Virus record (IMG/VR): IMGVR_UViG_3300043468_001768
Span: 1-47,149 of that record
DNA length: 47,149 bases
From: a virus
Reading direction: 5' to 3' (one strand)
The notes under the pieces were generated by a model. It worked only from the letters and a program-made list of their open reading frames with translations, was not told the origin of the DNA and made no database searches. Within the stretch, counting starts at the first letter, position 1; each line of letters opens with the position of its first letter. Of this stretch, positions 1,307 through 33,493 are shown piece after piece. The translations under genes and the position numbers were made by a program.

Positions 1307-4300
1307 TTATGCACCTGAAGGAAGAGCCAACACTCGTAAATCGTGTAGAACAGGAGTTCTAGTAGAATCTGAAGTTGCAAGAACAATTTTAATTGCAAAT
1401 TGACTGAAGTTGTTATATGTAATACCACTGGTGCTAGTATAACTTATTGAATTATCAGGTGTACCATTTGTGCCTGGTGCCGAAACATATTCTCTTAGAT
1501 CATCACGATTCAATGAGAAAGAATTTGAACCCGCATTTATCTCAGTCATTAATTGCCAATTTTGATCGTCAAAAATTTGTGTATCATTTCTGTTAAGCAA
1601 CTTGTAGTATACCAGGATTTTAGAACCGACAGGCTTATACGCTGTATAATACACTCTCAAGTCACCAGAATCATTTTCCGGTGTCAATACAACTTTCTTT
1701 GTTACATAACGTGCAATACCGTTGCCACCTTTTGCTGATGTTTCTCCTGAAACTACTGCCGTAGCTCTGTAACCACCAGTATTTGCTGCGATTGTTACTG
1801 TTGGAGTTGTAACATAACCTGATCCTGCTGCTGTTATATTTATCTTATCAACAATATAATTTCCAGATCCTATCGAAACAATATTAGCTGTTGCAAACGC
1901 TTGTGTTCCATCAGCAGCAGTCGGAGCAGAAATTGTAACTGCTGGAGGTGTGGATGAATAAACAGGAGTTATGTCCGCAACATTACCACTTGTAACAGTA
2001 ACATCAGTATTTGCAATGCTCATGTTATTAATATAATTTTGAATAACGTATAATGAAACACCGTCATCCGAAATTACAGGAGAAACATACTGATCTGTTG
2101 TAGTCAATGTTGCAGTTAAAACAAATGAATTATTTGAATTGGAATCTAATACTCTAGATCCTTTTCCATCATCAAGATATATGTGATCAATCATTGTTGT
2201 TGCAAATTTACCTGGATCAATCACTTTTGTAGAGTCTGCCGCATATGTTGATGATAGGGCTGGTCTATACGTATAAGAAATATTAGTATCGGTTGGTGAA
2301 AAATCTACAGTAGTTACATTCAGAGCATCATAATTTACATCTTTTGGATAAAAAATTCCATTAATACCTATTACAGTGTTTGCATCACTATTATAAATTA
2401 AATCCGTATCTACCATTTTTCTGGTAGGAATATTTTTTGGAACAATAAATTGTATTGTTGGTTGTGATGCGATATTAAAGATACAGTTTTCAACCGTAAA
2501 CATTAGATTTTTCGTTTGATCGGCAGTCCAAGTGATACCATTTTGTGATTCAAAAAGTGCACCGACATAAGGAGAGCCACCTATTTTTGTGATTGATGTT
2601 GGGTTTGGATCAGTTGGTAATGCTTTGACTGATGAGGGTATAGCTTCACCGTTTTGTGCCGCAAGCCAAACAACATAGTCTGGGCTTGTTGTTTGAAGAA
2701 CAAAAGCGTAAAGATTACCTGATCTTATGTAAACTGGAGATTCAAATTCAAATTCAGTATAAGTGCTTGCGTTTAAATAATGAGGTGTTTCAGAAGTGTT
2801 AATTTCTTGAACTGTCTTAACTACAAGAGAATTATCAAGAACTTGCCCACTTGGATATCCATTCAATGTATCAACAATGAACATTCTAACAGGAACGGCT
2901 GAAGACTGTGATGGCTTATTTCTAAAGAACACTTTTATTGATTTTATAAATGCACCATTAGGATAAGTATCTTCATCAATAATAAATGTTTGTGCTATTG
3001 GATCTACAATATAAGAAAAACTATCAATGAGAATATTATTTCTCTGTTCAACAGAAGAAAATACAGTGCTCTTTGCTGCTGCTTGAATTGTACCACCAAA
3101 ATTCAACGCTTGGCTTTTTGTCGCAAGAGAAGATGCTGTAAAAATAGCCTGTGAGAATGTTGTTGCTGTATCTGGATTATCATCAGTTGTTCTATTATCT
3201 ATTCTAACAACTCTGTCACCCGTTCTAAATTGCCCATTTGGTATTTGTAGTATACCTGCAAAATTACCATTTTCGTCAGTCGAAAGTCTAGGTGGAGCAG
3301 ATTGTGTGAAGGCTTGTGTCACTAGATATTGTGTACCAGTAATAGAATAATTAGATTCCACACTTGTTCTATTATTAATTCCTGTTGATATGTTTACTGG
3401 TGTGGCAAGAGTTGCAACCTTGGTGGTTCCGTTGTAATCGGAAATAGTTGCAGTGTATGTTTGAGTGAATAATTCGTACTTTGTGACCTCAGCATCATAT
3501 ACAGTATACCACCAGCATCCGAATTCATCGCACACATCAACTTGTCTAGCGCCGCCTCCGGTGACTGTACTTTTTTGATTTGTGGTTGTAATCTTAATTG
3601 TAGCACCATTATAAAAATCATCAATTGATGATGCAGTAGACTGTAATGTAATTGCAGTTGCACCCGTTCTATATTGCCCACCGCCATTGAAATTTGTTGT
3701 TGAACCACCACTTGAGCCTTGAACACTGCCACTTAAAGAAATCAACTGTGATGCTGCACTTGTATAACTACCAAACGCCGTGTTTCCAGAGTAAGTGCCA
3801 TTCTGGTCAAATCTTGCATTCTGAATTATGTTGGTGGTGCTATAAGATGTTGTTGTTTTATCAGAAGAAATATATAACCTAACTCCCGTCGATGAAGTTT
3901 TAGTCACACTAACAACACGACCGGTTGGGTAAAATGTACCTGAACTGAAATAACCAATCACATCACCTTCTTCAAAAGTTCCATTTACATTCGTTAAATT
4001 AATAATGTTGGGTTGAATCATGTATTGATCAACCTTTTCACCGTCAAAATAAACAGAAACAGGGGTATTGATTTTCATACCCTTGCCACGGAGAATTAAA
4101 TTTTGTGATCTTATGTAAGGCTGTATAGAAACATCAGTAATGAAATTACCAGTAATAGAATCTGCTTTTTCATAGTTTCCTGTAATTACATTTCTTTGTT
4201 GATCCTGATAAGTGTTAACGGTAACTGTTCGACCTGAAGATAAACTTGCACTATATGTTGTTCCAGCCACTCCTCCCCAATCTGATGCTGATAGTGTATT

Positions 4301-22178: not shown

Positions 22179-22615
22179 TGGCATACTCTGGCAGATTTTT
22201 ACCAAAAAACCCTCAAAAATATAGAGGGGAACCTTCAAATATCATCTACCGCTCTAGTTGGGAGTGTCGGGTGATGAATTGGCTCGACCAGAATGAATCT
22301 ATTCTAGAATGGGGTTCCGAAGAGTTTTCCATACCGTACCGATCACCAGTTGACAACAAAATACACCGTTATTTTCCAGATTTTTACGTGAAAGTTAAAC
22401 AGAAAGATGATACAATTAAGGTCATGATATTGGAAATTAAGCCAGCAAAACAGACGAAACCACCGGAAAAAAGAAAAAAGGTCACGAAACAATATATCAA
22501 TGAAGTTGTGACATGGGGTATAAATGAAGCGAAGTGGAAAGCCGCCACAGAATTTTGTTTGGATCGTGGTTGGGCTTTTAAAGTATTAACTGAACATGAT
22601 TTGGGAATAAAATGA
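22178..22615 (+). CDS. 4: Head completion protein gp4-like (145 aa)
   Basis: Residues 6-30 read RFLPKNPQKYRGEPSNIIYR then SSWECRVMNWLD, followed by FSIPYRSPVDNKIHRYFPDF, the typical gp4/gp50 head-completion block, and a C-terminal FCLDRGWAFKVLTEHDLG. The R-Y-F-P-D-F and LEIKPAKQ segments also resemble the PD-(D/E)XK-like fold reported for this family. Length fits T4 gp4 (150 aa). GTG 22157 and ATG 22160 are in-frame alternatives giving a few extra residues (YIYIY); I prefer ATG 22178. It overlaps the next gene by ATGA. Confidence 0.87.
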   Translation: MAYSGRFLPKNPQKYRGEPSNIIYRSSWECRVMNWLDQNESILEWGSEEFSIPYRSPVDNKIHRYFPDFYVKVKQKDDTIKVMILEIKPAKQTKPPEKRKKVTKQYINEVVTWGINEAKWKAATEFCLDRGWAFKVLTEHDLGIK

Positions 22616-24375
22616 TTAGACTACATGTATTGGCGGTTCCTCATACTGCATCAACAAAAGAATATACAGTTTGCGCATTCACTCAGAAAGTAATTAATTT
22701 CTGTAAAATGTTCAAAGAAGAAGGTATGCACGTGATTCACTATGGGCATGAAGACTCACAGGTCGAATGTGATGAACATGTCGCGGTAACCACACAAGCT
22801 CTACTTGAAAAAATTTACGGAATTTATGATTGGAAAAATCAAGGATTAAAATATAATCAAGAAGATGAAGTTTTTAAGACTTTTAATGATAATTGTATTA
22901 AGGAAATAGCAAAAAGAAAACAGCCTCACGATATTATTCTTTGTTTTTTTGGTGTTGCACAGAAGCCCGTTTGTGATGCGCATTCCGATCTTCTTTGTGT
23001 TGAACCAAGTATTGGTTATCCTTCCCAATTCGCACCTTACAAAGTATACGAATCGTATGCGGTGATGCATGGTCTACAAGGTCCAGAAAAGGTATCAACT
23101 GCCGAGTATAAATTTTACGATGCGGTTATTCCTTCAGGATTCGATCTATCCGAGTTCGATTTTAAAGATTGGTCTGGTAAACAAGATTATTTTCTAATGT
23201 GTGGTAGAATGGTGTGGTCAAAAGGAGTTGATATTGCTGCACAAGTGACAGAAAAAATAGGTAAAAAACTAATACTTGCTGGTACAACACATGGCCCTAG
23301 TGATTGTAATTTAGGAAATGAATGGCCGAAACATGTTGAGTATGTTGGCTATGCTGATGTTGAAAAACGCAAAAAATTAATGTCTGAGGCCATGGGGCTA
23401 TTTTGCCCGACAATTTACAACGAACCTTTTGGCTATGTAGCAATCGAAGCAATGCTTTCCGGAACTCCAGTGATCACTGTGGATTGGGGTGCTTTCACGG
23501 AAACTGTACAACATGGTGTCACAGGTTATCGCTGTAGAACTTTTGAGCAATTTCTATGGGCAGCCAAAAATATCACAACAATTTCACCGCATGCATGCCG
23601 TGAATGGGCGGCTGAGAATTATAATTTCAAGAAAATTGGCAAAATGTACCGTGAATATTTTGAATCAATTATTAACGTATCGAAAGGTACAGGCTGGTAC
23701 ACTGAAAGACCTGAAAGAACAGAACTGGAATGGCTCACAAAAAAACAACCAAAAAATCCAAAAACATTCAAAGAAGTTTTGACATGGTATAATGAAATTA
23801 AAGATGGGAAATTAAAATTTCTTCAAATCGGTGCCATGGATGGAGTCAGCCATGATGATTTGAATTCTTACATTATGTGTTTTGATTGGGAAGGTGTTTT
23901 AGTGGAGCCTCTTCCTGATATGTTCGAAAAGCTTGTCGATAACTATAGTCAGAAATATGGGCTTGATTTTGAATGTGCCGCTATTACGGAACAAGATGGT
24001 GAAGATTATATTCACCGAGTACCACCGGGAACAGAAGGTGCACCAGAATGGGCTGATGGGTGTTCAACATTGACACCAGAAAAGCATATTGACTATATCG
24101 TTCCAATGATGGTAAAAGAAAAAATACGAACAATGACACTGAAAAGTCTGGTCGAAAAACACAATTTACATGACGTAGATTTCGTTCAAATTGACACGGA
24201 GGGTTATGATTTTAAGATTTTCATGCAGATGGGCGGTGTTGTGAATCCGAGCCTCATAAAAGTCGAAATTGCTCACATTACATACACAAACGCCGTATAC
24301 ATGGAATATGTGATGAATCAAAAGGGCTACAAAACGTTCATCGATGGCTACGATTTAATCGCATACCGATTCTAA
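22612..24375 (+). CDS. Fusion of GT4-type glycosyltransferase and FkbM methyltransferase (587 aa)
   Basis: Residues 1-360 form a GT-B glycosyltransferase of the GT4 type: FLMCGRMVWSKGVDI in the nucleotide-sugar domain and the E-x7-E motif NEPFGYVAIEAMLSGTPVIT (Glu271, Glu279). Residues about 395-587 form an FkbM-family SAM-dependent methyltransferase: LKFLQIGAMDGVSHDD (motif I), GVLVEPLPDMFEKL and the family mark VDFVQIDTEGYDFKIF. A linker of about 30 residues joins them. The fused enzyme would add a sugar and methylate it, or act on two linked steps. The substrate is unknown. It starts by ATGA overlap with gp4, inside the virion block, so modification of a virion protein or of host surface glycan is possible. 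Confidence 0.85.
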   Translation: MIRLHVLAVPHTASTKEYTVCAFTQKVINFCKMFKEEGMHVIHYGHEDSQVECDEHVAVTTQALLEKIYGIYDWKNQGLKYNQEDEVFKTFNDNCIKEIAKRKQPHDIILCFFGVAQKPVCDAHSDLLCVEPSIGYPSQFAPYKVYESYAVMHGLQGPEKVSTAEYKFYDAVIPSGFDLSEFDFKDWSGKQDYFLMCGRMVWSKGVDIAAQVTEKIGKKLILAGTTHGPSDCNLGNEWPKHVEYVGYADVEKRKKLMSEAMGLFCPTIYNEPFGYVAIEAMLSGTPVITVDWGAFTETVQHGVTGYRCRTFEQFLWAAKNITTISPHACREWAAENYNFKKIGKMYREYFESIINVSKGTGWYTERPERTELEWLTKKQPKNPKTFKEVLTWYNEIKDGKLKFLQIGAMDGVSHDDLNSYIMCFDWEGVLVEPLPDMFEKLVDNYSQKYGLDFECAAITEQDGEDYIHRVPPGTEGAPEWADGCSTLTPEKHIDYIVPMMVKEKIRTMTLKSLVEKHNLHDVDFVQIDTEGYDFKIFMQMGGVVNPSLIKVEIAHITYTNAVYMEYVMNQKGYKTFIDGYDLIAYRF

Positions 24376-24387
24376 CATAAATATGGC

Positions 24388-24987
24388 ATGGCTTCCACAC
24401 TTACTCAATTAGCTACCGAAAGAACTGCTCTGGATCAAGAATTCTTATCCAGACAGTCTTTCACATGGTTTCAGGACAAGATAAAAGAATTAAAATCACC
24501 TGTAAATCTGGCAAAAGAGATAGTAAACGATAAGAGCCGAAAGGGTAGATTTGTAATGGGTGGTTTGTACCACTTTTTTTACGACCCTCTAACCAAATCT
24601 GAATTGCCTTATTATGATATGTTTCCTTTGGTGATACCACTTCAGCCTATGAATGATGGTTTTTTAGGGCTGAATTTGCATTATTTGCCACCGAGATACC
24701 GAGCATCATTCATGGATAAACTCATGAATTTTGCCATTTTAGACAAAGATGATGATCCTAAGAGACTTAGAGTCACATACGAAATATTGAATGCCACAAG
24801 GAATTACAGAGAATTTAAACCTTGTATCAAGCATTATTTGAAGTCACAAATTAAAACAAGGATAGTACCGATATATCCAAATGAGTGGGAAACTGCATTA
24901 TTTTTACCGACAGCAATTTTCAAAGGCGCAACACCTCAGAAAATTTACAAAGAATCAATTAATAAAATAAAAAGTAGGGTATACTAA
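24388..24987 (+). CDS. Conserved T4-like virion-block protein, possibly gp2 DNA-end protector (199 aa)
   Basis: The central block GGLYHFFYDPLTKSELPYYD, MFPLVIPLQPMNDGFLGLNL and HYLPPRYRASFMDKL, then EFKPCIKHYLKSQIKTRIV and PNEWETALFLPTAIFKGATP, resembles a protein I have seen in marine myoviruses labelled as a DNA-end protector (gp2). The T4 gp2 sequence itself is not clearly similar by eye. No membrane segment or enzyme motif is visible. It lies after the glycosyltransferase fusion and abuts the tail-tube-fold gene (TAATG). In T4, gp2 lies beside gp4, which agrees with the order here. Confidence 0.5.
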   Translation: MASTLTQLATERTALDQEFLSRQSFTWFQDKIKELKSPVNLAKEIVNDKSRKGRFVMGGLYHFFYDPLTKSELPYYDMFPLVIPLQPMNDGFLGLNLHYLPPRYRASFMDKLMNFAILDKDDDPKRLRVTYEILNATRNYREFKPCIKHYLKSQIKTRIVPIYPNEWETALFLPTAIFKGATPQKIYKESINKIKSRVY

Positions 24988-25718
24988 TGGCTGGATCCAT
25001 ATCTCAATTTAAGTCAAGCTTTTCTACTGATGTAGCTAGACCTAATAGATTTGATGTAATTGTCCCTGTACCAATAGGATTGGTGCCATACATTGGGCTG
25101 GTTAGAAGATTGAATCTTCGATGTGAGGCGGCAGAATTGCCAGGTAGAACCATTGCTACAACGAACATGAAAATTTATGGTGTCGAAGAAAAATTTCCAT
25201 ACATGACTTCATATAGTGACATTTCTTTGACTTTCATTGTTGGTGATGACATGAGAGAAAAGAAGTTGTTTGATGCATGGTTGAACTGGATAAACCCCTC
25301 ATATAGTTATGATATAAAATATAAGGCTGATTATACAGCAATTATTAGAATAAATCAATACGATGTTACTAATAAAAATACTTATTCAGTGGATTTAATG
25401 GATGCATTTCCTGTTGCAGTAAATCCTCTATCGTTAGATTGGCAATCCGATGGATATCATAAATTGACCGTAACTTTTGCATACACCAATTGGAGAAACA
25501 ATTCTCTTGAAAATCTCACGATGGAATTCTTAGAAAATCAGATTTATCAGAATATACCTCCAATATTACCCAGCACTTTGGGTACAGACTCAATTCCTGT
25601 TGATCAAGCTACAGAACTTTTAAGTACATCAACAACTTCTCCACAATTAGAGGCTGTTGCAGATTATAGCACCGATCAGGGTCCACCTATAACAAGTGTT
25701 ACAACAATTGCACAATAA
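24987..25718 (+). CDS. Tail-tube-fold protein, gp54/gp19-like (243 aa)
   Basis: Shows the pattern of gp19-type tube proteins of marine myoviruses: VARPNRFDVIVPVP, LRCEAAELPGRTI, a SYSDISLTFIVGDDMREKKL segment, FDAWLNWINP, YDIKYKADYTAIIRINQYDV, DAFPVAVNPLSLDWQSDG and KLTVTFAYTNW. The C-terminal 50 residues are Thr/Ser/Pro-rich and probably disordered. By position (hub and tape-measure genes follow) it is more likely the tube initiator gp54 than the main tube gp19, which normally lies beside the sheath gene. It begins at a TAATG overlap with the preceding gene. Confidence 0.7.
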   Translation: MAGSISQFKSSFSTDVARPNRFDVIVPVPIGLVPYIGLVRRLNLRCEAAELPGRTIATTNMKIYGVEEKFPYMTSYSDISLTFIVGDDMREKKLFDAWLNWINPSYSYDIKYKADYTAIIRINQYDVTNKNTYSVDLMDAFPVAVNPLSLDWQSDGYHKLTVTFAYTNWRNNSLENLTMEFLENQIYQNIPPILPSTLGTDSIPVDQATELLSTSTTSPQLEAVADYSTDQGPPITSVTTIAQ

Positions 25719-25733
25719 AATGAGGTTTAAAAT

Positions 25734-26459
25734 ATGGCTTTACCAAAAATTGATACACCAATTTATGATTTGACATTACCATTATCTAACAAACAAATTA
25801 GATTTAGACCGTTTTTGGTGAAAGAACAAAAAAATCTTTTGATGGCTATGGAAGCCGACGATAAAGATTCTATAGAAAAAAATGTCAAACAGGTCTTAAC
25901 GAATTGCACAATAACTGAAGGCATCAATATTGAAAAATTACCAGTGATTGACGTTGAATACTATTTTTTAAATCTTAGAGCTAGGTCTGTAGGTGAATTA
26001 ATTGAAAATAGTTATAAATGCAATAATGAAGTAAATGGTGAAATATGTAATAATGTGATGAAAACTTCTTTAAATATTTTAGATATTAAAGTTGAGATGC
26101 CAGAAAACGACAAGAGTTTGATTCAATTGACGGATGATATTACGATTAAACTTAGATATCCGGAATATTCTGTATTGAAAAAAATAACTCAAATGGATAA
26201 TGTTTCTGATGTTGCTTTTGAAATGATTGCTGAATGTGTAGATTACATATATGATGGAGAACAATATTATTATGGTAATGAAGTCTCTCAGAAAGAAATG
26301 GTCGAATTTATTGAAAATTTAAATCAACAGCAGTTTCAGAAAATCGAGGAGTTTTTTTCTGATATGCCTAAACTGGAAAAGAAAATAGAAATAAAGTGTT
26401 CGAAATGTTCATTTCAACATAACATTGATGTTCAAGGGCTCGAAAATTTTTTCGGTTAA
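25734..26459 (+). CDS. 26: gp26-like baseplate/tail assembly protein (241 aa)
   Basis: Begins MALPKIDTPIYDLTLPLSNK, followed by FRPFLVKEQKNLLMAMEADD and DVEYYFLNLRARSVGE, the T4_baseplate (gp26) family pattern of marine T4-like phages. Two Cys pairs (CNNEVNGEIC and CSKC) could bind zinc. It lies just before two long tape-measure/hub-like genes, the place of lambda G-type tail chaperones. The last codons carry a -1 slippery heptamer and the -1 frame stays open for 66 codons. A ribosome site (GAGG) precedes ATG 25734. Confidence 0.82.
   Translation: MALPKIDTPIYDLTLPLSNKQIRFRPFLVKEQKNLLMAMEADDKDSIEKNVKQVLTNCTITEGINIEKLPVIDVEYYFLNLRARSVGELIENSYKCNNEVNGEICNNVMKTSLNILDIKVEMPENDKSLIQLTDDITIKLRYPEYSVLKKITQMDNVSDVAFEMIAECVDYIYDGEQYYYGNEVSQKEMVEFIENLNQQQFQKIEEFFSDMPKLEKKIEIKCSKCSFQHNIDVQGLENFFG
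26447..26453 (+). promoter_or_regulatory. Candidate -1 programmed frameshift site T TTT TTC
   Basis: Codons 239-240 of the gp26-like gene (TTT TTC), with the preceding T, form the canonical X XXY YYZ heptamer in the correct register, 3 bases before the stop. A second possible slip, A AAT TTT, lies directly upstream. Two palindromes, GGTTAACC (26454-26461) and TTGTCATGACAA (26464-26475), follow and could form short structures. A -1 slip would enter a frame with no stop until 26653. Confidence 0.6.
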
Positions 26460-26653
26460 CCTTTTGTCATGACAATCTGAAAAATTATTACAGAACTAAT
26501 TTTTCTTTGATGCAACACCATAAATATAGTCTTACGGAACTTGAGAATATGATACCGTGGGAGAGAGATGTTTACGTCGCAATGCTTATACAATATATTG
26601 AGGAAGAAAATTTAAAAATAAAACAAAGACAAAACGAAAGAAAATTTAAATAA
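26453..26653 (+). CDS. -1 frame extension of gp26 (gp51/GT-type, 66 codons)
   Basis: In the -1 frame after the slip, codons give RLTFCHDNLKNYYRTNFSLM and then QHHKYSLTELENMIPWERDV, YVAMLIQYIEEEN. The ...SLTELENMIPWERDVYV... block is the sort of segment found at the C-terminus of tail-assembly chaperones, with aromatic, acidic and helical residues before the tape measure. Its TAA (26651-26653) overlaps the next ATG by one base, the coupling used across this genome, which supports translation. It could instead be an independent 47-codon gene from ATG 26510, but no ribosome site precedes that ATG. A 306-residue fusion is the more likely product. Confidence 0.62.
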   Translation, partial: RLTFCHDNLKNYYRTNFSLMQHHKYSLTELENMIPWERDVYVAMLIQYIEEENLKIKQRQNERKFK

Positions 26654-28323
26654 TGCCTCAGATAGCATATCTTCTTTCTCCAAAAGGAGCAACGAATCAA
26701 CAAAAGGAAAAACCTGATGTTGAAAATTCACCTATATCATCTTACGCCGGAAGTCTTAAAAATAAATTTAAACCTAAATCTGTTGAGCCTAAAGGTTCAA
26801 GTGTTTTTAGTCGAGTATTGGGAGCAATGGGTTTAGGTGAAAATAAAGCCAATCAAAAACTGAATGAAATTTATTCCTTACTTCAAAAAATTGAAGAGAA
26901 GAAGGAAAAAGATTATCAGTACAAACGCCTGAACGAAGAAATAGAAAAGAGTGAAGAAGAAAATAGACACAAAGAGATTGTGAATCTATTTGTCAGCGCG
27001 ACAAAACGGGTAAAAAGAAAAACATTTTTTCGCAAAGCAATGGGCGGAGGATTACCTTCATCTTTATTATTGTTAGGTGGTACAATCGGTTTACTTACTT
27101 TTGGCAAAGATGCAATGGCGTCGGCTAAAGATAGTATGCAGACTGACTTGGTTGAATCTATTCAAAAACAATTCACAGAAGTTTTTAATAAAACTAAAAA
27201 AGAAGTTGATGATATAGATTATAAAAGAGAATATGAAAACATAAGACAATACTTTGCAAAAGATTTCGAATCTATATCACAAGGTGACTTGGAACTAGGC
27301 ACAGTAAAAGATTCTGATGTTAGAATGGAAACCACACCTTTTCCTCCTGAAGGAGAGAAACCGTCAGAACCACCAAAAGTGGAACAAATTCAACCTCCAG
27401 TTGATAAACGTCAGGCTGAGGTAACAGCATATCCATCAACAGAATCAACGGAATCAACTGCTGTTCCAATTACCAGAAGCAGCGCACCAATGACTGCTAC
27501 ACCAACTGCTCGCCGTGCTGCTTCGTTGACGGCTCAAGGTGAAGTCGGCAAAAGAGAAAAAAATCCTGTAACTCAAATTGTAGAAAATGACCCTTCACCT
27601 GGTTATAAATCTTATGGGATTTTTGGCATGAACTCCAAACGTTCTAGACCCAATAACCCATCTTCGATAGAAGATTTTATTACGAGATATCCAGAATTTG
27701 GTTTGAAAGGCCTCAAACCTGGCTCTAAAGAATTTGATGAGAGATGGAAAGCTTTAGGGCAAACAAATAATATAAATTTATTAAATGCGCAAATTCAATG
27801 GTATGAAAATACTATATTTAATCCGTTAAGAAATAGTTTATTGAAAGAATTACCAGAGAGATTGGCAAACGATGAGCGCGTATTGATTTATATGGCAGAT
27901 AGAAGGGCGCAATATGGATATGTTGCTGAAGGTGATGCACTCAGATATGCCAGAATCGCATCGACACCTGAAGAATTCATTCGAAAAATGTCTGAATTCG
28001 ATAGAAATCCAGAAAACATCAAAAGAGCATTTGAAACTAAAATAGGCACAACTTCACCTGAAAAAGTGCCAGGCTTGATACAAGGGCTGATAAACCGTGT
28101 GAATCTAAGAGAACAAAAAGCATTAAATCCTGAAAACATAGGAACAATAGGTTCTACTCTGAGCCAGGGATCCTCAGAATTAAAGCTTTCTCGTTTATTC
28201 GATGATATGAGTGTTTCAGATTCAGGAATGCAAGGTGTAATAAACAATGTAAATGTAATGGCTAGTAAAACAATAGTTAGAAGAATTAATGCTTCTATCC
28301 ACGATCATCCTATGGTGGCATAA
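26653..28323 (+). CDS. Tail hub/tape-measure-like protein with lysozyme-like domain (556 aa)
   Basis: Residues 65-125 are charged coiled coil. Residues 130-150 are a hydrophobic Gly/Leu segment, 220-295 a Pro/Thr/Ser linker, and about 295-450 a globular domain. The latter has QGEVGKRE (possible catalytic Glu), DPSPGYKSYGIFGMNS, IEDFITRYPEFGLKG, FDERWKALGQ and LIYMADRRAQYGYV. This order, an Asp-Pro-x-x-Gly-x-x-S-Y-G-I turn followed by F...W and D-x-x-A-Q-Y-G helices, is that of lysozyme/chitosanase-like peptidoglycan hydrolases found in phage tails. It could replace the muramidase missing from gp5. Position after the gp26 chaperone fits a tape-measure or hub role. The enzyme call is by pattern only. 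Confidence 0.6.
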   Translation: MPQIAYLLSPKGATNQQKEKPDVENSPISSYAGSLKNKFKPKSVEPKGSSVFSRVLGAMGLGENKANQKLNEIYSLLQKIEEKKEKDYQYKRLNEEIEKSEEENRHKEIVNLFVSATKRVKRKTFFRKAMGGGLPSSLLLLGGTIGLLTFGKDAMASAKDSMQTDLVESIQKQFTEVFNKTKKEVDDIDYKREYENIRQYFAKDFESISQGDLELGTVKDSDVRMETTPFPPEGEKPSEPPKVEQIQPPVDKRQAEVTAYPSTESTESTAVPITRSSAPMTATPTARRAASLTAQGEVGKREKNPVTQIVENDPSPGYKSYGIFGMNSKRSRPNNPSSIEDFITRYPEFGLKGLKPGSKEFDERWKALGQTNNINLLNAQIQWYENTIFNPLRNSLLKELPERLANDERVLIYMADRRAQYGYVAEGDALRYARIASTPEEFIRKMSEFDRNPENIKRAFETKIGTTSPEKVPGLIQGLINRVNLREQKALNPENIGTIGSTLSQGSSELKLSRLFDDMSVSDSGMQGVINNVNVMASKTIVRRINASIHDHPMVA

Positions 28324-28326
28324 AAA

Positions 28327-29928
28327 ATGGACTATCAATCAGCAAAAGAAATACGAGGCAGAAGTTTAACATCTCTAATTACATCTAGAATGATGGCTGG
28401 GCGAGGTGTTGGATCTGCTATTTCAAAATCTGTTTCTTTGAAAATGAGAGCAAAGGTTACAGGTATCAAAGAAAAATTTGATCCAATGAACATTGCAAGA
28501 TTCATGACAGGAGGTAGTAGATTTGCCACTGCTGCTGTAGGTAGATTGACAGGTAGATCAACAAAAGATATTGAATATTTTGCAGGTTCAAAAAAGAAAT
28601 ATTCAAGAATGAATCGCCCAGTAAAAACAAGTGAAAAATTAAATGCTACATCAATTGGAACTCTGAGTGATATGCTTACCTTTTTTCAGTTGGTAGATAA
28701 ACGAGATTCAAAGAGAAGAGAATTAGACCGCGCATTTGCAGAAGAAAAAGAGATGGAAAGTGAGAGAAGACATAAAAATTTTCTGTCTGTATTAAAGAAT
28801 TTTATTGATAGTGTTTCAACTCAAACAAAGGCTATTCCAGAGAAAGAAGAAAAAAAAGATGGAATAATGTCGGGGTTATTACCTATACTATCATCAATGT
28901 TTGGTGCTTTCAAATCATTAATATCAACTTTGTCAAGTTTACTGACAACATTTATTTTACCTTTAATAAAATCACTAATCTCTTCGATAGTGAGTTCAAT
29001 ACTTTCAGGTGTAAGATTTTTAATCTCATCGTTGCTCAAAGGTGTTCTACAAGCATTATCTTGGATAAGTAAAATAAGATTTTTACCCCTGTTTAGATTA
29101 CTATTAAGGGCTGCTGGACCATTAGCATTAGGTTACTTGCTTTATGAATTAGTTAAACTTGCGGCTGAAAAAATGTCAGATCAAAAATATCTTACGCCAC
29201 AAGAAGCTATGAATTTATTGAAAGGTGCACAAACAATTGGAGCTTTGGAAGGTTCAGGTGGATATGAAAAAATAGTTGACATGGCTAAATTCGGTAAAGT
29301 TCGTGCAATCGGCTTGATGCAAAGCTATGCAGAGAATCCTGATGATATTGAAACAAAAATTGAAATAAGAAAAATGGGAGGATTTAAAAAAGTTCAAGAA
29401 ATAGCAAATAGTGCTATTATAGATGAAGCTGAAATACCTTCTTTAGAAGAAATAATCAAAAGAACTTTAGAACCAATGCCAGCATACAAGGATTTGTCAA
29501 GACTTAAAGGTGTTCAACGTACTCAATTTCTTGAAAAATATAGAGAAAGTGGAGTAAGAAGGGATTTGGATGAAGAGGATGTTTTACAGGAAGTTGATTT
29601 AAGAAAAGCAATCGATTATTACAAGAAAAACTATGATTATGAAGTGCCACAAATGGACTATGGTTCAGCTAGCCCAGAATCATTAACAACACTTGAAAAT
29701 TCTATAGGTACGTTTGCACCTCTTACTGATCTGGAAAAAGAAAATATGAGATTGCATGAGCAAGCCAGAATGGAATATGCCCGTTCAGTACAAACAAGAG
29801 CAAGCCCACCTATTGCAACGACAACTAGAACATTAAGCACAACTGATGAGCAATCTCAAGTAGCAGATACGAGAAATAGAGACAAAATATTTACAAACGC
29901 AATTAGAAGAAGTCTGGCGCCATTATAA
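28327..29928 (+). CDS. Tape-measure-like tail protein (533 aa)
   Basis: Has basic helical N-terminal sequence with coiled coil (about 120-165), a very hydrophobic Ser/Leu/Ile run (about 185-285, including LPLIKSLISSIVSSILSG and AAGPLALGYLLYELVKLA), then charged helices and a disordered C-terminus. A long helical protein with a central membrane-active part, placed after the chaperone-like gp26, fits a tape measure of gp29 type (T4 gp29 is 590 aa). There is no enzyme motif. It begins 3 bases after the preceding stop and is the last gene of the rightward block, followed by a strong terminator. Confidence 0.6.
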   Translation: MDYQSAKEIRGRSLTSLITSRMMAGRGVGSAISKSVSLKMRAKVTGIKEKFDPMNIARFMTGGSRFATAAVGRLTGRSTKDIEYFAGSKKKYSRMNRPVKTSEKLNATSIGTLSDMLTFFQLVDKRDSKRRELDRAFAEEKEMESERRHKNFLSVLKNFIDSVSTQTKAIPEKEEKKDGIMSGLLPILSSMFGAFKSLISTLSSLLTTFILPLIKSLISSIVSSILSGVRFLISSLLKGVLQALSWISKIRFLPLFRLLLRAAGPLALGYLLYELVKLAAEKMSDQKYLTPQEAMNLLKGAQTIGALEGSGGYEKIVDMAKFGKVRAIGLMQSYAENPDDIETKIEIRKMGGFKKVQEIANSAIIDEAEIPSLEEIIKRTLEPMPAYKDLSRLKGVQRTQFLEKYRESGVRRDLDEEDVLQEVDLRKAIDYYKKNYDYEVPQMDYGSASPESLTTLENSIGTFAPLTDLEKENMRLHEQARMEYARSVQTRASPPIATTTRTLSTTDEQSQVADTRNRDKIFTNAIRRSLAPL

Positions 29929-32610: not shown

Positions 32611-33064
32611 GGTAGTATAATGTGTCCTCTTTGATAATGTCGAGTTTGAATCCTTCGAGAAGTACCTTTTTAGCCACAGCCTCGGATTCTTTATATGTTG
32701 CTGCATGAATGGGTCTCACTTTTGCTTTTGAATCACAGTACCAACTGAACTGACAGATTAAATTATTGTAAACTAAATTTCTTTCGTATACAACTGCACA
32801 AATATCCTTTGGAAATTTACCTGATTTAGTTCTGTTGATCGTTACTTGCGCTACTGCTACTTTTCCTTCAAAAGGTTCTGTTCCTGCTTCATAATATATG
32901 TTTTTCGCTAGACAGTCAAGTTCTTTTTCACGTTGAGCCATTGTCACATATGAAGGATGTTTACCTTCTTTTACTTCCTCAAACTTCTTATCTACGAGAT
33001 GGTGAAAATGTTGTGTGAAAAAATAGCCGAGAATGCCTATGAAAACTAGTTTCATAAATTGCAT
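32534..33064 (-). CDS. SleB-type cell wall hydrolase, probable endolysin (176 aa)
   Basis: Residues 1-20 are a hydrophobic signal-anchor (MKLVFIGILGYFFT). The catalytic part shows the Hydrolase_2/SleB pattern: LDCLAKNIYYEAGTEPFEGK, VAVAQVTINRTKSGKFPKDI, CAVVYERN, ICQFSWYCDSK and YYHADYINPGW. These are lytic transglycosylase-like enzymes with Glu of Y-Y-E-A as the likely acid. The signal anchor suggests export independent of the holin. A strong AAAGGAG at 33073-33079 precedes ATG 33064 and lies only 4 bases beyond the tmRNA terminal hairpin, so endolysin and tmRNA share a transcript. Confidence 0.85.
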   Translation of the reverse strand: MQFMKLVFIGILGYFFTQHFHHLVDKKFEEVKEGKHPSYVTMAQREKELDCLAKNIYYEAGTEPFEGKVAVAQVTINRTKSGKFPKDICAVVYERNLVYNNLICQFSWYCDSKAKVRPIHAATYKESEAVAKKVLLEGFKLDIIKEDTLYYHADYINPGWKRQRVAKIGKHIFYKG

Positions 33065-33130
33065 TATGGATCTCCTTTGAATGGTGGGTTATTCTGTTAC
33101 GAGGAAACCCACCGAAACCCTAGGCTGTGT

Positions 33131-33163
33131 TTAGGCAGCCAATGCGAAACGTTCTTCGTTTGC
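33131..33163 (-). other. tmRNA proteolysis-tag reading frame ANEERFALAA
   Basis: Codons GCA AAC GAA GAA CGT TTC GCA TTG GCT GCC TAA on the minus strand encode ANEERFALAA and stop. The resume codon is GCA after AGTAAAC. The ALAA end is the degron read by ClpXP and similar proteases; E. coli has ANDENYALAA. Confidence 0.92.
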
Positions 33164-33248
33164 GTTTACTTTGATTTACTTTTAACGACTCTCTGTGTCG
33201 GATCGTCCATCTTCCTACTTATTGCCCCGTCGAAACCAGGTCAGGCCC

Positions 33249-33367
33249 ATTAGAAAACTCTCTGCGATACTTGAAATCATGGTAGCCCTTCTTCCTAGCA
33301 GGTACTTGCTTTGGTCGACTTTAGCAAGTTTTTCTGTTTATCTAGTGTAGCTACTCAAAGAGTTTTC
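33249..33367 (-). other. tmRNA intervening segment with closing inverted repeat
   Basis: This 119-base segment between the CCA and the 5' acceptor strand would be removed from the precursor. Bases 33252-33261 (agaaaactct) are the perfect reverse complement of 33359-33368 (agagttttct), a 10-bp stem that would stack on the acceptor stem. Inside are nested complementary blocks GTAGC/GCTAC, CTAG/CTAG and CTTGC/GCAAG, giving a long hairpin. Confidence 0.8.
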
Positions 33368-33436
33368 TGGTGGACCTGGGCGGAATCGAACCGCCGTCCG
33401 AAACACTTTTCAGTCAACTTCATACGATCATTTTGT

Positions 33437-33444
33437 TATTTATA
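33437..33444 (-). promoter_or_regulatory. T4-type late promoter before tmRNA (TATAAATA)
   Basis: Exact TATAAATA on the minus strand. Start of transcription would fall near 33430, immediately before the bases that can pair with the coding piece. It would drive tmRNA and then endolysin and holin candidate late in infection. Confidence 0.72.
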
Positions 33445-33449
33445 TGATA

Positions 33450-33478
33450 ATTATATCAAATGGTAAGTATTTTGGCAA
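33450..33478 (-). promoter_or_regulatory. Early sigma70-like promoter before tmRNA
   Basis: TTGCCA (33473-33478), exactly 17 bases, TATAAT (33450-33455) on the minus strand. The late element lies 5 bases downstream of the -10, so the tmRNA can be made both early and late. The remaining gap between the nuclease stop (33494) and the tmRNA holds nothing else. Confidence 0.75.
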
Positions 33479-33493
33479 GCAGTTGTTGCAGTA

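Follow-up and report, generated by a model that had tools for sequence, protein, structure and literature searches.

A predicted -1 frameshift joining gp26 to a gp51-like tail in the tail-assembly chaperone gene of a T4-like phage

I describe here a viral sequence of 47,149 nucleotides (hereafter the window, meaning the whole stretch that was analysed), in which gp26 and an overlapping -1-frame extension very probably form one tail-assembly chaperone gene, making a short and a long form by -1 slippage (probability about 0.93). According to this model, most ribosomes would terminate at the gp26 TAA codon, giving the short form (gp26, or TAC-N), and a minority would slip back one base, with tRNA-Phe on the TTT and TTC of the heptamer T TTT TTC, giving a 306-residue long form (gp26-gp51, or TAC-NC). 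I infer both the occurrence and the efficiency of this slippage from the sequence; likewise, the targets of the two forms would be the tape measure and tail tube proteins, as for gpG and gpGT of phage lambda. As read from the sequence, the elements present are the slip site, the -1 frame, conservation of the extension at the protein level, and the lack of any usable start codon near the site.

The gp26 gene and its -1-frame extension

The gp26 gene (25734–26459, + strand) encodes 241 amino acids matching Pfam PF12322 (T4_baseplate, E = 1.8e-61) and PHROG 150 (E = 1.5e-68), and is surrounded by genes for tail, baseplate and head-completion proteins, among them a DNA end protector (24388–24987) and a tube protein (24987–25718). 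Its 3' end reads CTC GAA AAT TTT TTC GGT TAA, with the slippery heptamer at 26447–26453 (+ strand) and the zero-frame stop codon TAA at 26457–26459 (+ strand). As noted in a preliminary description of this DNA, the heptamer is in the exact X XXY YYZ register, with a single codon (GGT) separating it from the stop, and the coordinates given there are correct. A second heptamer, A AAT TTT (26444–26450), overlaps it from upstream, and is also found in some relatives.

After a TGA at 26426, the -1 frame stays open up to a TAA at 26651–26653. The same description had proposed that it continues for 66 codons past the slip, that its stop shares one base with the ATG of the following ORF, and that the product resembles a gp26-gp51 fusion; all three proposals hold, the shared base being 26653 within TAATG. 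The extension (26453–26653, + strand, 66 codons and the TAA) would add 66 residues to gp26; it matches PHROG 634, the baseplate hub assembly catalyst gp51 (E = 1.4e-29), as well as the last part of PHROG 150, and aligns with the tail of T4 gp51. I therefore refer to it as the gp51-like C-terminal domain (TAC-C) of the putative long form.

The next ORF (26653–28323, + strand, 556 aa) is in part similar to a VgrG3-like C-terminal domain (PF21277, E = 7e-7), and the second ORF downstream of gp26 (28327–29928, + strand, 533 aa) is a probable tape measure protein, from a weak match to the PHROG 58 tape measure family (E = 4e-4). Elsewhere in the window, between the head closure gene and the tail genes, a glycosyltransferase (PHROG 3408, E = 9e-123) is fused to a methyltransferase-like C-terminal part (22612–24375). 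A permuted, two-piece tmRNA is encoded on the - strand at 33040–33480 (33040–33460 in ARAGORN, tag ANEERFALAA), matching the Rfam families beta_tmRNA (RF01850, E = 5e-42) and tmRNA_permuted (RF04321, E = 6e-26), and may point to a betaproteobacterial host.

Conservation of the slip site and of the sequences around it

A search of viral contigs identified 80 loci, and with three cyanophages and the window this gave 83 loci possessing both parts, which reduce to 63 distinct loci at 90% nucleotide identity. A second, marine set, mostly obtained with the P-SSM2 query, comprises 84 loci, 31 of them distinct; the V09 and Cr30 queries returned only two loci each from the viral contigs. A heptamer T TTT TT[C/T/A], separated from the stop of gp26 by 3 or 6 nt, and gp51 in the -1 frame are found in 82 of the 83 loci. 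Aligning the non-redundant homologous loci, as the preliminary description had suggested, shows both the heptamer and gp51 at -1 in all 94 (63/63 and 31/31). Zero-frame X XXY YYZ heptamers also occur at 103 of 15,233 codons in the gp26 bodies of relatives (TTTTTTC at two of these) and at 51 of 4,081 codons in the ORFs of the window, and for this reason finding one such heptamer counts for little by itself; its recurrence at one position in every non-redundant locus of both sets is far beyond chance. In addition, the P-site Phe codon is TTT in 63/63 loci, compared with 73% of Phe codons in gene bodies, and the preceding codon ends in T in all 63.

The site is found in 17 named phages belonging to several T4-like families, namely V09, F86, Ah1, S13, S-PM2, S-WAM1, P-SSM2, DSL-LC03, ACG-2014i, P10VF (as T TTT TTG), ORM_20, IC12, phiM7, YB07, DLP6, Cr30 and V45v66. 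The sole exception among the 83 loci (L056) is a natural in-frame gp26-gp51 fusion (positions 3001–3891 of its record) that has lost the heptamer, and its junction, TCT TTT TGG TTA, is consistent with a 2-nt loss in the slip site. This 236-kb record contains a single PF12322 copy, and represents either a phage with the long form only or an assembly error. No X XXY YYZ heptamer is found in the Ackermannviridae and Vibrio phage K446 (5/5 loci: L088, L090, L091, L102 and L106), where the -1 gp51-like frame is kept, which speaks against the model. In these loci only a TT TTC before the stop is conserved; GG32 and Kevin have no ATG at the stop.

Upstream of the slip site, the relatives possess a Shine-Dalgarno-like element, often GGAGG, at a distance of about 10 nt. 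Pairing to the anti-Shine-Dalgarno sequence is strongest in 9-nt segments ending 6–9 nt before the heptamer, with means down to -7.3 kcal/mol compared to -0.3 kcal/mol over 400 nt, and in both locus sets this is the strongest mean position within the 400 nt upstream. The element could instead be a by-product of conserved Glu-Gly residues, playing no part in slippage: T4 gp26, where there is no slip site, keeps the Gly as well (RGL), and neither YB07 nor the window has a strong element. However, the codons chosen pair more strongly than synonymous resampling predicts, at -7.4 observed versus -5.4 +/- 0.19 in the first set and -8.4 versus -5.7 +/- 0.28 in the second (0/300 resamplings each), although the loci are related, so that these counts overstate their independence and are less decisive than they appear. 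This, together with the position of the pairing maximum, makes the by-product explanation unlikely, if still a serious one, and the element probably stimulates slippage in the relatives.

For the phage of the window, the role of the corresponding sequence is uncertain, since this AAGGG, 8 nt before the heptamer (26434–26438, + strand), reaches only -4.2 kcal/mol, and gp26 itself contains a better-pairing segment about 100 nt further upstream.

On the downstream side, the 100 nt following the site in the window fold no better than shuffled sequences (z = +0.99), and the relatives show no consensus structure there, both searches covering pseudoknot-free structures. This outcome and the weakness of the upstream sequence in the window count against the model. 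Two palindromes had been pointed out after the slip site, and both are indeed present, GGTTAACC at 26454–26461 and TTGTCATGACAA at 26464–26475; a stimulatory role does not follow, as each is palindromic in 4/63 loci and no stable fold is found downstream, and I consider them incidental. I tentatively suggest, at a little under even odds, that the frameshifting T4-like phages share a two-element cassette not yet described as such, consisting of the Shine-Dalgarno-like sequence (often GGAGG) and T TTT TTC, without downstream RNA structure. Its upstream element may be new.

Alternative origins of the gp51-like product

A different possibility is that gp51 is a separate small protein, translated from an internal start or by reinitiation once ribosomes have terminated at the end of gp26. 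Many or most database records annotate it as its own gene, TAATG or TGATG overlaps are found in V09, F86, P10VF, YB07, Cr30 and phiM7, and a start codon lies close to the end of gp26 in 30 of the 31 marine loci; because of the latter, an additional, separate gp51 product is possible in the marine set. However, none of the 94 loci has a -1-frame start codon in the stretch from 9 nt ahead of the first heptamer base to 8 nt beyond it, and 34 of the 63 loci in the set of the window have none until 50 nt past it. With no such start in range, the upstream element is itself unlikely to serve gp51 initiation. For the window gene, the earliest ATG in the -1 frame is at 26510 (with a TTG at 26507), and no Shine-Dalgarno sequence is found there. 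The 19 codons preceding the first ATG contain no stops and vary as -1-frame coding sequence, with entropies of 0.78, 0.49 and 1.21 by codon position. Initiation at 26510 would therefore take place without a ribosome site and drop 19 conserved codons, and I rejected it as a candidate start. A separate gp51 would moreover leave the invariant heptamer unexplained, and is in my view very improbable.

Less probable still is slippage of RNA polymerase, instead of the ribosome, on the T run, which is six T long, or seven in some relatives: a run of six T closed by a C offers little length for such slippage, a longer run would favour it, yet the heptamer ends in C in 55/63 and 30/31 loci, even though TTC makes up just 27% of the Phe codons of the first set, and the exact codon register is kept in every locus.

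Relation to other chaperones and to T4 genes 26 and 51

The AlphaFold2 model of gp26 has a mean pLDDT of 86. That of the natural gp26-gp51 fusion has a mean pLDDT of 85.6, with a helical extension and lower confidence near the junction. A Foldseek search of the PDB with the gp26 model gave nothing significant, and a profile search of solved structures with gp26 found no relative. Upon re-alignment, the model is nearest to tail-assembly chaperones, with 3fgx, 3klu (YqbN) and 2ob9 (HK97 tail assembly chaperone) giving Z scores of 7.3–7.8 over residues 1–95, all under 8, followed by 5ir0 (Z = 4.6) and unrelated chains (2.8). YqbN belongs to the same kind of chaperone. This predicted likeness, along with the tape-measure-like ORF two genes downstream, agrees with the lambda-like chaperone role proposed in the preliminary description.

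The resemblance to lambda gpG/gpGT extends to a short protein with a putative minor -1 long form, a heptamer just before the stop, and a location close upstream of a probable tape measure gene. In contrast to lambda, the window protein belongs to another sequence family (PF12322), its heptamer is T TTT TTC, and there is one extra ORF before the tape-measure-like ORF. The dnaX cassette of E. coli has an upstream Shine-Dalgarno sequence and a downstream stem-loop around a -1 slippery heptamer. The relatives of the window phage share with it a -1 heptamer preceded, at about 10 nt, by a Shine-Dalgarno-like sequence; they differ in that no downstream stem-loop was found, and in the window the upstream element is weak.

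Direct literature searches for a gp26/gp51 frameshift returned nothing, and the mechanism surfaced through papers citing Vladimirov, Gautam & Davidson, 2022 (doi 10.1016/j.virol.2021.11.003). As cited in PMC12846349, that study describes poly-T slippery sites in the TAC-N genes of T4-like phages, and as cited in PMC10885494, some T4-like phages instead use two genes, one short and one long. The window gene resembles the TAC genes so described, with gp26 corresponding to TAC-N, the gp51 tail to TAC-C, and a poly-T slippery site. Going by these citing papers, the core mechanism is already published, and the window phage is therefore a further, new member.

T4 has the same short and long pair from the same family, using two paralogous genes. 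Its gp26 (208 aa) and gp51 (249 aa) both match PF12322, and gp51 is a gp26 paralogue that ends in the tail which the predicted frameshift would add in the window phage. Among the records tested, those with a slip site have one PF12322 copy over the cut-off, and T4, JSE and Aeromonas phage 25 have two. The two Phe residues are kept in the gp26 of T4 and Cronus, encoded as TTC TTT after GAG, which is not slippery, and the heptamer is therefore gone. In a phylogenetic tree, a supported branch (97/98) separates the T4-type gp26 and gp51 from the proteins of the frameshift loci and the Ackermannviridae. Within the T4 group the branching has weak support and includes one long branch, so that the tree gives no date for the duplication.

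T4 gp51 is needed for assembly and absent from the final particle, and a 2010 review lists it as essential and of unknown function (PMC3004832). No gp51 is annotated in Ah1, S13, DSL-LC03, ACG-2014i or S-WAM1. The analysis thus exposes an annotation gap, in that what is listed as a separate gp51, or missed, most likely forms the end part of a fusion protein. The upstream element offers a testable candidate for a frameshift stimulator. These observations fit the interpretation already in print, in which T4 genes 26 and 51 encode the short and long tail-assembly chaperones.
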